This document shows, in pieces, positions 8,281-41,919 of a stretch of DNA of 41,919 nucleotides. The stretch covers positions 1 through 41,919 of the forward strand of contig JACRQA010000049.1 of the NCBI GenBank assembly GCA_016222915.1, read 5' to 3'. Numbering within the stretch: position 1 is the stretch's first letter; every line of letters starts with the position of its first letter. The translations under genes and the position numbers were made by a program. Below the pieces are notes generated by a model. The model was given only the letters and a program-made list of their open reading frames with translations, had not been told where the DNA came from and ran no database searches. Source of the DNA: Nitrospirota bacterium. Lineage in GTDB: Bacteria > Nitrospirota > Thermodesulfovibrionia > UBA6902.

Positions 8281-9512
8281 ATGAAAATCCAATCTTATAA
8301 AAGACTCATTGAAGACCTGGATAAAAAGCATCTCTGGCACCCTTTTACCCAGATGAAGGAGTGGACAGAGGAGAGCCCGCTGATTATTACCGAAGGACAT
8401 GGTTCTTTTCTTAAAGACATTTATGGGAAGTGGTATATTGACGGCGTGTCTTCTCTATGGGTCAATGTCCATGGCCACAGGAAAAAAGAAATTGATGATG
8501 CAGTAAAAGGCCAGATAGACAGGATCAGCCACTCAACTCTTCTCGGTCTGACCCATCCACCTGCAGCAGAGCTTGCAGGGATGCTGGCCAACATAGCCCC
8601 AAAAGGTCTTACAAGGGTCTTTTATTCCGACAATGGATCGACGTCTGTAGAAGTCGGGCTTAAAATGGCCTATCAATACTGGCAGCACAAAGGGATTAAG
8701 AATAAGACGAAATTTGTGTCCCTCAATAATGCATACCATGGGGACACTATAGGAGCGGTCAGCGTCGGAAAGCAGAGAAGATAATGAGAAAACATAAACG
8801 GGAAATAGCCGCATTGATTATTGAGCCTCTTATGCAGGGGGCAGGCGGGATGATTGCCTCTCCACCGGGATATTTAAAAGGGATCAAGAGATTATGCAAT
8901 AGTTACGATATCCTTATGATCGCGGATGAAGTCGCCACGGGCTTTGGAAGGACGGGGAGGATGTTTGCCTGTGAACACGAAAACGTAAACCCTGACATCC
9001 TTTGCCTCGCAAAGGGCATAACCGGCGGGTACCTGCCCCTTGCCGCAACCATGACAACAGAAAAAATCTATAAGGTGTTTTTGGGCAATTACAGGGAATT
9101 AAAAACCTTCTTTCACGGACACACATACACGGGCAATCAGCTTGCCTGTGCAGCAGCTATTGCTAACCTCAATGTGTTTAAAAAAGAAAAGACCCTGCAG
9201 AAGCTGAATAAAAAAATTGAACTACTTAATAAGGAACTGCTGAAGATGTCAGCATTCAAACGCGTAGGAGACATCAGGCAGAAGGGCTTCATGGTCGGGA
9301 TTGAACTTGTTAAGGACAAAAAAACCGGAGAGCCGTATCCGCTTGAAGACAAAATCGGCTGGCGGGTCTGTTATGCTGCACGTGAGAAAGGGCTTATTAT
9401 AAGACCCCTCGGTAACGTTATCGTATTGATGCCGCCGTTAAGCATCTCCCACCAGGAACTAAAAAGCCTCAGCAGGACCACTGCTGAGGCCATAACGGAC
9501 ATAACCGGATAA
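8281..9512 (+). pseudogene. bioA: Adenosylmethionine-8-amino-7-oxononanoate aminotransferase, broken by internal deletion and frameshift
   Basis: BioA makes 7,8-diaminopelargonic acid in biotin synthesis. The first frame (8281-8784) holds the N-terminus up to [14 protein letters not shown] and then stops. A second frame (8784-9512) continues with MRKHKREIAALIIEPLMQG, the PLP-site IADEVATGFGRTG, the Lys-containing LAKGITGGY and the C-terminus. Intact BioA has about 50 residues between these parts. Reading the second frame back from its ATG gives a BioA-like KAEKI, so the coding match resumes just after the break. The event is therefore a deletion of about 150 bases that also changes frame. The two halves overlap by one base (TAATG), so two peptides could be made, but without the missing segment activity is unlikely. 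No Shine-Dalgarno precedes the first ATG. An assembly error is the main alternative. Confidence 0.85.
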
Positions 9513-34741: not shown

Positions 34742-34769
34742 CTGATTTCTGACGGCTGTCCCCTGACTA
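34742..34769. repeat. Degenerate 7-bp repeat at the 3' end of the Rho-like gene
   Basis: CTGATTT, CTGACGG, CTGTCCC and CTGACTA follow each other without gap. The last unit contains the stop codon of the Rho-like gene (read on the other strand). Confidence 0.45.
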
Positions 34770-35729
34770 ACCTCTTGCATCCTTAAATGATTCTAAAAGT
34801 TCGCTATTGCTCGGATATTTCTGAAGCAGCTCTATCAGCTTTTCCATAGCGGCAACACTATTATTCATCGATGCCATGCCCCGGTACAATAATTCAAGGC
34901 GTCTGTACTCTTCCGGGTCAAACAAAAGCTCGGCACGCCGGGTACCTCTCTGTGACGCATCGATCGCCGGGAACACCCTTTTTTCGGCCAGTTTCTTTGA
35001 GAGCACCATCTCCATATTCCACGTACCTTTGAACTCCTCAAATATGACATTATCCATAGCGCTGCCTGTATCTACCAGGATCGTCGCAAGGATTGTTATA
35101 GAGCCCATTCCCTCTACATTGCGGGCAATGCCAAAAATACGGCGCGGCACTTCAAGAGCGCCGGCAGTTACTCCCCCGGACATTGTACGCCCGCTGCCCC
35201 GGTGCTGTGCGTTATGCACGCGCGCCAGACGCGTAAGTGAATCAAGCAATATCATCACATTATGCCCTGCAACAGCTTCCTTAAAGACCTCAGCCATGAC
35301 CTTATCGACAATCTTGATATGACTTTCCTGACTATGGTCCATAGACGAGGAATAAACCCTGGCCTTCACACTGCGTGTAAAATCAGTCACCTCCTCGGGA
35401 CGCTCATCAACAAGCAGGCAATATACCTTCATGTCAGGATACCCGTTTGTTACCGCATTACTGATGTTCTTTAAAAACGTCGTCTTACCCAACCCGGGCG
35501 ATGATACCACCAGCCCACGCTGTCCCATCCCAATTGGACAAATAAGATCAAGCGCGCGGACGGACAAATCATCGCTGCCCTTCTCAAGAATAATGCGTGT
35601 ATTAGGATTAACTGCCGTACCGGCAAGAAACTTTTTCTCATCATCTGAAGCGACCCTGCGCGCCGGCGCATTGGAACGCTGCGGCGGTCGTGCTTTCCCA
35701 CGCCGCGGATTTGAACTAAACGATCTCAT
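34767..35729 (-). CDS. Rho-like hexameric ATPase lacking the primary RNA-binding domain
   Basis: The 320-residue protein aligns to the motor domain of transcription terminator Rho (about 420 residues): LICPIGMGQRGLVV, Walker A SSPGLGKTT (Lys82), LLVDERPEEVTDF, Walker B ILLDSLTRLAR (Asp163), RGSGRTMSGGV (Q-loop) and AIDASQRGTRRAELL. The N-terminal CSD/OB RNA-binding domain is absent; instead there are about 40 residues, basic and proline-rich. The ATG has a good AAGGAG site and no domain is encoded upstream, so this is the true start. The R-loop reads EFKGTWNME instead of the usual KGTGNME. It is likely a paralogue with altered RNA handling, not the main terminator. Confidence 0.88.
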   Translation of the reverse strand: MRSFSSNPRRGKARPPQRSNAPARRVASDDEKKFLAGTAVNPNTRIILEKGSDDLSVRALDLICPIGMGQRGLVVSSPGLGKTTFLKNISNAVTNGYPDMKVYCLLVDERPEEVTDFTRSVKARVYSSSMDHSQESHIKIVDKVMAEVFKEAVAGHNVMILLDSLTRLARVHNAQHRGSGRTMSGGVTAGALEVPRRIFGIARNVEGMGSITILATILVDTGSAMDNVIFEEFKGTWNMEMVLSKKLAEKRVFPAIDASQRGTRRAELLFDPEEYRRLELLYRGMASMNNSVAAMEKLIELLQKYPSNSELLESFKDARG

Positions 35730-37426: not shown

Positions 37427-37879
37427 TCATCTGCGCAGCCTGAAAAATTCTTTCAGTATCTCAGCGCATTCATGTTCCAGTACGCCCGAGACGACCCTGA
37501 TCTGATGATTAAGCCCAGGATCGTGCAATAGCTGATACCGGCTGTTGACCGCGCCGAATCTTTCATCTTTGCACCCGTAAACCAGCCTTCCCAGCCTCGC
37601 GTTTATCATGGCCCCGGCGCACATCACGCACGGTTCTTTAGTAACGTAAAGGGTCGCGTCCGTCATCCGCCACTCACTTCCCCTTGTCGCCGCGTCCCGT
37701 ATAACCAGTAATTCCGCATGAGCGGTCGGATCATTTGTGGACTCTTTACTGTTATGGGCCGAGGCAATGACCTTATCATCCAGCACAAGGACCGAGCCTA
37801 CCGGTACCTCGGCTTTTTCGTTTGCAGCCTCTGCCTCTTTAAGGGCAAGGCGCATGAAATATTCGTCCCTCTCACTCAT
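37427..37879 (-). CDS. tadA: tRNA-specific adenosine deaminase
   Basis: TadA converts adenosine 34 to inosine in the tRNA anticodon. The 150-residue protein has the zinc-deaminase motif HAELLVIRDAA and PCVMCAGAM with the zinc ligands and catalytic Glu, plus ARLGRLVYGCKDERFGA near the C-terminus. Its ATG follows the stop of a 30-residue Cys-rich ORF after one extra in-frame stop codon, and the site has no clear Shine-Dalgarno of its own, so coupling to that ORF is possible. Confidence 0.95.
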   Translation of the reverse strand: MSERDEYFMRLALKEAEAANEKAEVPVGSVLVLDDKVIASAHNSKESTNDPTAHAELLVIRDAATRGSEWRMTDATLYVTKEPCVMCAGAMINARLGRLVYGCKDERFGAVNSRYQLLHDPGLNHQIRVVSGVLEHECAEILKEFFRLRR

Positions 37880-37882
37880 TTA

Positions 37883-37975
37883 TTATCGACTGCAGATGTG
37901 TCCGCATTCAGCGCAGCATCTACATTCTTCAATGGGCCTTTCGCAAACATGGCAGATTTCATCTTTATTTTCCAT
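37883..37975 (-). CDS. Very small Cys-rich ORF next to tadA, 30 residues
   Basis: The ORF encodes seven cysteines in 30 residues (positions 8, 11, 18, 20, 21, 24 and 28) plus His9 and His26, with CHVC and CAEC pairs typical of zinc ribbons. It ends in two stop codons (TAATAA) and tadA starts at once. No clear Shine-Dalgarno precedes its ATG. The ordered CxxC spacing is unlikely by chance, which argues for a real peptide, probably binding zinc or an Fe-S cluster. It is too short for family recognition. Confidence 0.5.
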   Translation of the reverse strand: MENKDEICHVCERPIEECRCCAECGHICSR

Positions 37976-38033
37976 AGCTGATAAAACTGTTTCAGCATAA
38001 CCCAGCGCATTGGTCCAAATCAAGAGAAGCGTA

Positions 38034-38292: not shown

Positions 38293-41200
38293 ATGAAGAT
38301 CGGGACCCGTCAAAAAGACCTTTCAGGTAGAAATCAAGCCGTGAAGTTTTTGTTTCCATTGTCTTTGCTTGCTGCCTTTCTTTTTGCCTTTTCGGCATCG
38401 GCATTTGCAGCATGGACAACCGAGGCGGTAGATGCGCCAAAGAATTTTTCCAATATGTCTCAGCGATCGATAGCGATAGACAAAATAACAGGCAGGCCTC
38501 ACATTGCGTATGGAAGGGACCATTTATACCATGCCTATCATGATGGGACACAATGGCAGTATGAAACTGTTGACGGTTCTTCCGGGGTAGGTGAGTATGC
38601 ATCTATCGCCATGGGTTCAAATAATAAAATCCATATCAGCTATTTTGACAATACGTACGGTAATCTCAAGTATGCAACCAATGCTTCGGGCTCGTGGGTA
38701 GCGTCTACTATAGATTCAACGCCGGCTGTGGGAAAGTACACATCAATAGCTGTTGATACAAACGACAAGGTGCATATCAGTTATTACAACTATTCAACTC
38801 TTGATTTAAAGTATGCGACCAATGCTTCAGGCTCGTGGGTAACATCTACGATAGATTCGGCACTCGATGTGGGAAGCTACTCATCTATCGCAATGGATTC
38901 AAGCAACAATGTGCATATCAGTTATTATGATGCTTCATACAAAGACCTCAAGTACGCGACCAATGCTTCAGGCTCGTGGGTAAAGTCTTCGATAGATTCA
39001 ACAGCGACTGTGGGAATGTACACATCGATAGCTGTTGATACAAACAACAAGGCGCATATCAGCTATTTTGACTTTACAAATTTCAACCTTAAATATGCGA
39101 CCAATGCTTCAGGCTCGTGGGGAACATCTACGATAGATTCGACAGTATATGTGGGATGGTACACATCGATTGCTGTTGATACAAACAACAAGGCGCATAT
39201 CAGCTATTGCAACTATTCAACTCTTGATTTAAAGTATGCGACTAATGCCTCAGGCTCTTGGGTAAAGTCTACGATAGATTCTGCAGACGATGTGGGGCGG
39301 TACTCTTCGATAGCACTTGATACAAGCAACAAGGTGCACATCAGCTATTTTGACTTTACAAATTTTAACCTTAAATATGCGACCAATGCCTCGGGCGTAT
39401 GGGTAACATCTGCAATAGATTCGGCAGAATATGTGGGAGGACATTCATCCATCGCCCTTGATTCAAACAACAAAGCGCATATCAGCTATTTTGACTTTAC
39501 GAACGAGGACCTCAAGTATTCAACGAATGCCTCAGGCTCATGGGTAACATCCACGATAGATTCGGCAGGTAGTGTGGGGTGGTACTCCTCGATAGCCCTT
39601 GATTCAAACAACAAGGCGCATATCAGCTATTTTGACAATACGAACCAGGCCCTCAACCTCAAGTATGCGACCAATGCCTCAGGCGCATGGGTAACCTCTA
39701 CAATAGATTCGACACCATATGTGGGGACAAATAGCTCAATCGCCCTTGATTCAAACAACAAGGTGCATATCAGCTATTATGACCGATCGAATTATGACCT
39801 CAAATATGCGACTAATGCCTCAGGCGAGTGGGTAAAGTCTACTATAGATTCGGCAGGGGATGTGGGAGAGTCCACATCCTTAGCCATTGATGCAAACAAC
39901 AGGGTGCATATCAGCTATTTTGATTATACGAACCAGGACCTCAAGTATGCGACCAATGCCTCAGGCGCATGGGTAACGTCTACGATAGATTCAACAGGAA
40001 GAGTGGGAATGTCCACATCCATAGCCATTGATGCAAACAACAGGGTGCATATCAGCTATTATGATTATACGAACCAGGACCTCAAGTATGCCACCAATGC
40101 CTCAGGCTCGTGGGTAACATCCATGATAGATACGGCAGGCGCAAACTACTCATCTATCGCAATAGATTCAAGCAACAAGGCGCATATCAGCTATTATGAT
40201 GCAAGCAACCTCAAATATGTGACCAATGCATCAGGCTCATGGGTAAAGTCTACGATAGATTCAACAGGTGATGTGGGATCGTATACCTCTATGGCACTTG
40301 ATATATACGGCAATGCGCATATCAGTTATTGTGATGCTTCAAACTATGACCTAAAATATGCGACCAACTACTCACCCCACGCTGACGACGACGGAGATGG
40401 TTATACTGAAAATCAGGGGGACTGCAATGATTCCAAGCCGGCTATAAACCCGGCGGCAGTGGAAGTATGCGACGGGATGGACAATAATTGCGACGGACAG
40501 AGGGATGAGGGTTTTCTCGCAGATACGTATTATGATGATATTGACAATGACGGGTATGGAAGCCCGGCAAGAGTCATTGTCTTATGCGCGCAGTTTCCCG
40601 GTTATGTTACAGACAATACGGATTGTAATGATTACGATTCAAATATTTTTCCCGGCGCTCAGGATTTGTGCGATGGCATAGATAACGACTGCTCGGGCGG
40701 TGTTGATGAAATTTATGATGCTGACGGAGACGGATACGGATCGTGCTTTGATTGCAATGACAGCGACCCTGCAGTAAATCCCGGGATACAGGAAATACTT
40801 TATGACGGTCTGGACAATGATTGCAATGCAGCCACCTTAGATGATGATCTGGACAGGGACGGATATGAGCATTCAGCGGATTGTAATGACGCGAATCCGG
40901 CGATAAATCCGGGTGTTTCTGAAGTGCCTGCCAATTGTGTTGATGATGATTGCAATCCTGCAACGTCGGACATAGCGGCAAATCCGGGCGGATGGGCTAT
41001 CGAATGCATCGACCGCAATCACTTTTTTGGACACACCTCAATAGCCGTAGATTCAAATAACAAGCTGCATATCATTTATTATGATGCTTCGGACTATGAC
41101 CTCAAATATGCGACCAATGCATCCGGATCATGGCTCATGTCCGTCATAGATTCTGCCGGAAGCACTGGGAATAGATCCTTAGCTGTTGATTCTGATAATA

Positions 41201-41919
41201 ATGCCCACATAATCTACTATGATTCCTCCGGCGACGATCTTAAATATGCAACCAATGCGTCCGGATCATGGGTCACGTCGGTTATAGATTCTGCAGGAGA
41301 CGTTGGGAGTAATAATTCAATAGCTTTGGATTCAACAGGTAAAGTACACATTAGTTATCAGGACAAAACTAATATGGACCTTAAATACGCCACCAATGCG
41401 TCAGGCTCATGGGTCACAGCAGCAATTGATTCCATCGGGAACGTGGGTTTATATACATCGATAGCAATTGACTCAAACAATAAGGCCCATATCAGCTATT
41501 TTGATTTGTCCAATTATGACTTAAGATACGCGACCAATGCATCAGGTTCATGGGTGATAACCACATTAGACTGGGAATCCGATGTAGGCAGGTATTCTTC
41601 CATCGCTGTTGATTCAAACAACAAGATACATATCAGTTACACTAATAACACCTCTTATGATTTAAAGTATGCGACCAATGCATCCGGTTTATGGATCACC
41701 TCTACATTAGATTCTATAGGGAGCGTAGGTAATGATTCTTCCATCGCCGTTGATTCAAACGACAAGGCGCATATAAGTTATTGGGATGGAACTAACTCAG
41801 ACTTAAAGTATGCGACCAATGCATCCGGTCCATGGGTCACCTCTACATTAGATTCTACAGGGAGCACAGGCAATGATCCTTCCATGGTTGTTGATTCATG
41901 CAACAACATATATATCAGC
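38293..41919 (+). CDS. Secreted repeat protein with MopE-like metal-binding region (partial, runs off the window)
   Basis: An uninterrupted frame of 1209 codons starts at ATG 38293 after GGAGG and is still open at the window end. Residues 1-40 are a signal peptide with a basic start and a cut after AFA. Then come about thirteen repeats of 47 residues (141 bases) with the consensus YATNASGSWVTSTIDSAG...SSIALDSNNKAHISYYD. Residues about 697-903 hold MopE-type putative metal-binding repeats (DGDGY, DCND, CDGxDNNCDG), rich in Asp and Cys. At least six more 47-residue repeats follow. The repeats resemble beta-propeller or sialidase-like blades, so the chain may form one or two propellers split by a metal-binding module. 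Neighbouring DNA repeats are very alike, which suggests recent duplication. Confidence 0.85.
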   Translation, partial: MKIGTRQKDLSGRNQAVKFLFPLSLLAAFLFAFSASAFAAWTTEAVDAPKNFSNMSQRSIAIDKITGRPHIAYGRDHLYHAYHDGTQWQYETVDGSSGVGEYASIAMGSNNKIHISYFDNTYGNLKYATNASGSWVASTIDSTPAVGKYTSIAVDTNDKVHISYYNYSTLDLKYATNASGSWVTSTIDSALDVGSYSSIAMDSSNNVHISYYDASYKDLKYATNASGSWVKSSIDSTATVGMYTSIAVDTNNKAHISYFDFTNFNLKYATNASGSWGTSTIDSTVYVGWYTSIAVDTNNKAHISYCNYSTLDLKYATNASGSWVKSTIDSADDVGRYSSIALDTSNKVHISYFDFTNFNLKYATNASGVWVTSAIDSAEYVGGHSSIALDSNNKAHISYFDFTNEDLKYSTNASGSWVTSTIDSAGSVGWYSSIALDSNNKAHISYFDNTNQALNLKYATNASGAWVTSTIDSTPYVGTNSSIALDSNNKVHISYYDRSNYDLKYATNASGEWVKSTIDSAGDVGESTSLAIDANNRVHISYFDYTNQDLKYATNASGAWVTSTIDSTGRVGMSTSIAIDANNRVHISYYDYTNQDLKYATNASGSWVTSMIDTAGANYSSIAIDSSNKAHISYYDASNLKYVTNASGSWVKSTIDSTGDVGSYTSMALDIYGNAHISYCDASNYDLKYATNYSPHADDDGDGYTENQGDCNDSKPAINPAAVEVCDGMDNNCDGQRDEGFLADTYYDDIDNDGYGSPARVIVLCAQFPGYVTDNTDCNDYDSNIFPGAQDLCDGIDNDCSGGVDEIYDADGDGYGSCFDCNDSDPAVNPGIQEILYDGLDNDCNAATLDDDLDRDGYEHSADCNDANPAINPGVSEVPANCVDDDCNPATSDIAANPGGWAIECIDRNHFFGHTSIAVDSNNKLHIIYYDASDYDLKYATNASGSWLMSVIDSAGSTGNRSLAVDSDNNAHIIYYDSSGDDLKYATNASGSWVTSVIDSAGDVGSNNSIALDSTGKVHISYQDKTNMDLKYATNASGSWVTAAIDSIGNVGLYTSIAIDSNNKAHISYFDLSNYDLRYATNASGSWVITTLDWESDVGRYSSIAVDSNNKIHISYTNNTSYDLKYATNASGLWITSTLDSIGSVGNDSSIAVDSNDKAHISYWDGTNSDLKYATNASGPWVTSTLDSTGSTGNDPSMVVDSCNNIYIS
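38671..40374 (+). repeat. First block of 141-bp coding tandem repeats (about 13 units)
   Basis: The phrase TATGCGACCAATGC recurs about every 141 bases, with the companion phrase CATATCAGCTATT between. Units at 38809 and 38950 are exactly 141 bases apart; a few units differ by some codons. Confidence 0.85.
41040..41919 (+). repeat. Second block of 141-bp coding tandem repeats (6 or more units)
   Basis: The same protein repeat resumes after the metal-binding region, but with different codon choice (for example GCATCCGG and TCCATCGCC), so it is an older or separately expanded block. It continues past the window end. Confidence 0.8.

Follow-up and report, generated by a model that had tools for sequence, protein, structure and literature searches.

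A probable truncated cysteine-type copy of a selenoprotein-like, zinc-ribbon-like microprotein family in front of tadA in a Nitrospirota genome

The small ORF directly upstream of tadA in the window (the whole stretch of 41,919 nucleotides of Nitrospirota contig JACRQA010000049.1 that was analysed) is likely to be a Cys-type copy, shortened recently, of a Nitrospirota microprotein family, the members of which appear to be mainly selenoprotein-like, zinc-ribbon-like CxxC/CxxU proteins. The interest of the ORF lies in the family to which it leads.

The window ORF and its truncation

Read from 37975 to 37883 on the minus strand, the ORF encodes MENKDEICHVCERPIEECRCCAECGHICSR followed by TAA TAA, in agreement with an earlier note, made from the DNA letters, that had described a 30-residue ORF with seven Cys in the spacing CxxC-x6-CxCC-x2-C-x3-C before tadA (Table 1). 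When these 30 residues were used as a query, both the genus and the family of the window yielded clear homologues (E 6e-12 and weaker), most of them located just before tadA; among these are the homologues (E 6e-12 to 6e-11) just upstream of tadA in the three same-genus genomes carrying the gene. The ORF and its Cys spacing are thus kept upstream of tadA in same-genus relatives, which share the pattern CxxC-x6-CxCC-x2-[C/U]-GH-x-C-x-LD-x-GE-x-YCPVC. These relatives encode proteins of ~48 residues with nine Cys, compared with 30 residues and seven Cys in the window, and in G001, G002, G003, and the rest of the family the protein runs on past HICS with LDxGExYCPVCFPE. DNA alignment with the same-genus relatives revealed that 50 bp are missing from the window copy, so that approximately 16 C-terminal residues corresponding to this stretch are absent. 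Because the deletion shifts the frame, it accounts for both R30 and the double stop of the window ORF. The double stop at the tadA ATG reported in the earlier note is therefore present but is a by-product of the deletion rather than the native end; in G002 the native TGA stop of the microprotein gene overlaps the tadA ATG. Together, the alignments indicate that the 30-residue length is not native and that the window ORF is a truncated copy. Disruption of the frame in close relatives had been named as an outcome that would refute the ORF, and the situation is reversed, with the relatives being intact and the window copy disrupted.

Table 1. Features of the window around the small ORF.
Feature	Position	Strand	Basis
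Small ORF (30 codons and TAA), shortened Cys-type member of the family	37883..37975	-	Sequence, alignment with relatives
Junction of 50-bp deletion relative to same-genus G002, GTC|GAT	37887..37888	-	Alignment with G001-G003
Tandem TAA TAA, frameshift product	37880..37885	-	Sequence, DNA alignment
Promoter-like TTGATT-18-TATGCT	37994..38023	-	Sequence comparison, inference
tadA, tRNA adenosine(34) deaminase, directly downstream of the ORF; ATG at 37879	37427..37879	-	NCBIfam PRK10860, E 7.5e-56

The window copy retains seven Cys and the conserved His, has TGC and not UGA at the codon matching the TGA of relatives, and has lost the C-terminal CPVC knuckle. As this last knuckle is gone and the putative N-terminal metal-binding half is kept, the window copy is probably impaired as a Cys-type protein and its own function may be lost. 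Over the remaining 29 codons, pN/pS against close relatives is 0.13-0.31, a synonymous-to-nonsynonymous contrast that reflects purifying selection and resembles that of intact relatives, pointing either to a recent deletion or to retention of the short form. A search of the 94% complete window genome found no second copy. The promoter-like element upstream of the ORF is visibly kept in G001-G003, G008, and G015; it matches the consensus at 8 of 12 letters, which is under the scan threshold, and it was not called by the scan. No Rfam elements were found in the window.

Elsewhere in the window, two plus-strand ORFs, 8281-8784 and 8784-9512, hold the parts of a split bioA-like class-III aminotransferase (PF00202) and cover profile positions 5-140 and 186-396, respectively; the split may reflect a frameshift, an assembly error, or a pseudogene. 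A Rho-like protein (34767-35729, minus strand) has only 320 residues, with Pfam detecting the ATPase domain alone and no N-terminal RNA-binding domain. Divergent from tadA, a large repeat protein (38293-41919, plus strand) that runs off the window contains BNR-like repeats (DLKYATNASGSW...) and four MopE-type putative metal-binding motifs (PF11617).

The microprotein family, its in-frame UGA and the adjoining hairpin

Across 84,980 species genomes, the scan yielded 84 confirmed stretches, 80 of which were kept as named loci. Nearly all of these belong to Nitrospirota (Thermodesulfovibrionia-type MAGs), with a few, Cys forms only, in MAGs named Deltaproteobacteria; in a sample of the phylum, family matches occurred in 93 of 396 Nitrospirota genomes. 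Among 45 aligned members, C-x2-C-x6-C-x-C-C-x2-C/U-x-H-x-C ... E-x2-C-P-x-C-x-P is invariant and G, L, G, and V are nearly so, giving nine invariant Cys/Sec positions and one His within a family of ~45 residues. The median dN/dS of 0.14 in TGA forms and 0.18 in Cys forms points to purifying selection. The earlier view that the ORF is far from random is borne out by these values, by the pN/pS of the window copy, and by the homologues before tadA in the genus, and the comparisons indicate that the family is real protein-coding sequence. No confident Pfam, NCBIfam (June 2026), or PDB family match to its members was obtained. In one locus of G040 (L083), seven inserted residues separate the CC pair from CGH (CCPVGTTRFRECGHVC). 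The genomes of G001-G003 harbor a TGA paralogue elsewhere in addition to the tadA-linked copy; that of G003 (L085) is missing several conserved residues and looks decayed, and the tadA-linked Cys copy of G003 is intact.

The sixth Cys codon of the family is TGA in 42 of the 80 loci and TGC or TGT in 35, and of the three loci left unclassified by the pattern, two (L144 and L174) also have TGA and the third is cut off. Conservation beyond the TGA matches that of the Cys forms. In one Cys locus (L164), a TGA falls on a Gly codon instead. In tests for SelB, 69 of 75 and 52 of 58 genomes scored above cut-off, and a hand tally of TGA-form genomes found it in all but four (G091, G170, G259, and G412), two of which are 74-80% complete. 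tRNA-Sec was above cut-off in 63 of 75 genomes, a count that includes some weaker look-alikes, and was full-length in most; the window genome has SelB, and tRNA-Sec was not found there above cut-off. We infer that the UGA in the relatives is read as selenocysteine, which would give a CPEU (CxxU) motif.

Downstream of the UGA, a hairpin of 4-5 bp (C16-G31, Y17-R30, Y18-G29, C19-G28, and U20-R27, counted from the T of TGA) is predicted, with a GGAYNN loop and 17 nt from the UGA to the loop. The bacterial SECIS (bSECIS) model requires a loop of 3-9 nt with a G in the first two positions, 16-37 nt after the UGA (PMC13188914), and both the loop and the spacing lie inside it. The mean MFE is -7.9 over all TGA forms, with a majority of the loci taken singly reaching -7.5 or lower, and RNAalifold recovered the same +16 to +31 stem unprompted. 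All pairs of the hairpin are formed in 35 of 40 TGA forms vs 3 of 35 Cys forms, and synonymous-codon shuffling gave a mean z of -1.76 in the former and +0.06 in the latter (Mann-Whitney p 1.2e-8). For the Gly codon within the stem, GGG is used by 27 of 31 TGA forms of the GH type vs 5 of 35 Cys forms (p 2.6e-9, background 0.22). A subgroup of seven TGA copies next to tadA with SHVC has a weaker, shifted hairpin, with a GAUNNN loop in six of the seven, and mostly misses the bSECIS energy limit. Of the three Cys forms that still have the full hairpin, two (L116 and L110) appear to have changed from Sec to Cys recently and to have retained the hairpin; the region upstream of L116 is syntenic with that of the TGA form L139. 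Pair covariation was not above shuffles (106 of 500) and no compensatory changes were found in the hairpin, a lack of formal covariation that is expected since most of the paired positions are dictated by the codons; support for the hairpin lies in synonymous choice and the Sec/Cys contrast and not in compensatory changes. A phylogeny-controlled test of the association between Sec and hairpin, with about ten Sec-Cys changes, a poorly supported tree, and two supported independent pairs, had no power. Overall, the UGA forms carry a predicted hairpin that is favoured at synonymous sites and fits the bacterial SECIS model.

Genomic neighbourhoods and alternative readings

Within the window's order, nearly every copy of the microprotein gene adjoins or is fused to tadA. 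The gap between the two is mostly 0-60 nt in the closest relatives, overlap or in-frame fusion also occurring, and fusions to TadA without an intervening stop are found in at least five loci, namely L115, L119, L164, and L169 (Cys forms) and L141 (TGA form). In G043 (L164/L090), the TGA of the fused Cys microdomain-TadA lies at a conserved Gly codon and may be a nonsense mutation or a sequencing error. Outside this order, the downstream gene encodes YajQ, a RarA-like AAA ATPase, an NfeD protease (followed by a stomatin-like gene), PsiE, or YceD (followed by PlsX and FabH), whereas some copies stand alone with a convergent gene next. No common function was found among the neighbouring genes of the microprotein loci. 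The link to tRNA editing drawn in the earlier note thus holds in the window's order only. The TGA form of L141 (G017) is in frame with TadA in a protein of 205 residues with U24, and its tadA is the only one detected in G017. It may be that full TadA is made there only if the UGA is read as selenocysteine, which would tie A34-to-I editing of tRNA-Arg to selenium or redox state, an idea that we regard as quite improbable.

These neighbourhoods bear on two other explanations of the gene. It could encode a dedicated redox- or metal-responsive partner of TadA, i.e. an accessory subunit of tRNA editing, as the near-constant position of the gene directly before tadA, or its fusion to tadA, in the window's order and the fact that TadA is a zinc enzyme would suggest; however, its neighbours outside that order are yajQ, rarA, nfeD, psiE, and yceD and not tadA, and several genomes of the window's family keep tadA and lack the microprotein, making an exclusive role of this kind possible but rather unlikely. 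A cysteine- or zinc-sensing leader peptide attenuating tadA expression, as raised in the earlier note, would account for an ORF that is promoter-proximal, very short, Cys-rich, and directly before tadA. This is very unlikely, as no terminator-like hairpin occurs on the minus strand between the ORF and tadA, where there is no room for one, the spacing ranges from an overlap, or no gap, up to tens of nt, with in-frame fusions among the variants, and purifying selection acts at the amino-acid level outside the Cys runs (LD, GE, and YCPVC). The amino-acid sequence is conserved at many unrelated loci and the gene elsewhere precedes unrelated genes or stands alone; therefore, it is not a tadA-specific leader.

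Two further readings concern the UGA and the length of the window copy. If the UGA of the relatives were not Sec, it would be a plain stop with a truncated product or a codon reassigned to another residue, and SelB did go undetected in the four TGA-form genomes named above. Nevertheless, the post-UGA sequence is equally constrained with GE and CPVC invariant, UGA alternates at this position with Cys codons only, UGA is an ordinary stop elsewhere in the same loci (the L100 microORF itself being an example), and the SECIS-like hairpin is present, which together render this reading very improbable. As for the window copy, the 30-residue form could be a functional, stably shortened variant and not a decaying copy, in line with the pN/pS of its remaining codons, the retention of all seven N-terminal Cys and the His, and an ORF that still abuts tadA. 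A recent deletion would, however, give the same picture, the truncation was seen in no other genome among the relatives and loci compared, and the invariant GE..CPVC knuckle is gone, so that a stable short form is considered unlikely. The reading preferred here remains that of a recently truncated Cys-type member of a mainly selenoprotein-like family.

Predicted fold and comparison with known systems

By sequence, the family comes closest to the archaeal RNA polymerase subunit B zinc ribbon (E 0.0056), and Pfam zinc-ribbon/RING matches are sub-threshold (best E 0.0018). Full-length members have a pattern of two CxxC-type knuckles, the second of which the window copy lacks; AlphaFold2 on the 45-sequence alignment gave a poor model (pLDDT 59, pTM 0.33). 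A zinc-ribbon-like fold that has a further Cys site in its N-terminal part is suggested by GHxC, CPVC, and three CxxC-type pairs, one of which is CxxU in selenoprotein members; the microprotein is predicted to be metal-bound and redox-active. Both the conservation of the CxxC knuckles and the purifying selection are in line with the earlier proposal of a very small protein with a putative zinc or Fe-S site. In the proposed explanation, Sec would sit in the first knuckle of the fold (CPE[C/U]GHxC ... CPVC) and provide a sharper redox switch or metal ligand, and C4/C7/C14/C16 would be a likely second metal site. Less certainly, the microprotein may work as a thiol/selenol redox switch or a metal-handling adaptor. 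Within the window's order, the gene would have come to lie before tadA, overlapping it, directly adjoining it, or fused to it, and the microprotein may serve there as a redox- or metal-responsive partner of the zinc enzyme TadA.

If this explanation is correct, uncultured Nitrospirota would widely encode a selenoprotein family that has gone undescribed, one that departs from the thioredoxin-like context typical of such proteins and in which Sec takes the place of a knuckle Cys in a zinc-ribbon-like microprotein of ~45 residues; as gene callers end it at the UGA, it is likely to be missed. Together with the Sec or Cys domains fused to TadA, the natural Sec/Cys pairs and the hairpin-bearing Cys forms would be test cases for the use of Sec in a metal-binding knuckle and for a coupling of tRNA editing to redox or selenium state.

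The family had no match among the 119 prokaryotic selenoprotein families catalogued in 2026 (PMC13188914), a review whose table also served for the families of Haft 2025, and was not found in the selenoprotein literature on Nitrospirae/Nitrospirota, Thermodesulfovibrio, zinc ribbon, and FmdB, subscription papers being outside the search. With the catalogued CxxU families (PMC13188914, Table 1) it shares a UGA aligned to Cys, a bSECIS-like hairpin after the UGA, SelB and tRNA-Sec, and the CxxU motif, but none of the catalogued families has the C-x6-CxCC-PEU-GH-x-C...CPVC architecture and most have a thioredoxin-like fold, which the microprotein does not resemble. The models TIGR02605, NF041197, and NF041239 (CC-Se motif) gave no match up to E 1 with 22 members and up to E 10 with two full-length members. 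FmdB (TIGR02605) is a zinc-ribbon-type small protein. A CxxU Sec form of an FmdB-family putative regulatory protein was predicted in the GOS metagenome (PMC2398784), so that both are small Cys-knuckle proteins with a predicted CxxU Sec form, but the Cys spacing differs. The OS_HP3 dual CXXC motif small protein (NF041197) is likewise small, with several CxxC and a predicted Sec form, but its listed Sec motif is RxU/GxU vs CxxU in the microprotein. In zinc ribbons (RNA polymerase subunit B; Pfam Zn_Ribbon_1/3 and RUBY_RBDX), to which the microprotein has no confident Pfam match, the CxxCGHxx...YCPVC pattern aligns, whereas the microprotein adds the N-terminal C4/C7/C14/C16 cluster and Sec replaces a knuckle ligand. 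Finally, Cys-rich regulatory leader peptides are also short, Cys-rich, and first in their operon, whereas the microprotein lacks an attenuator hairpin, is conserved at many loci, and also occurs fused to TadA.
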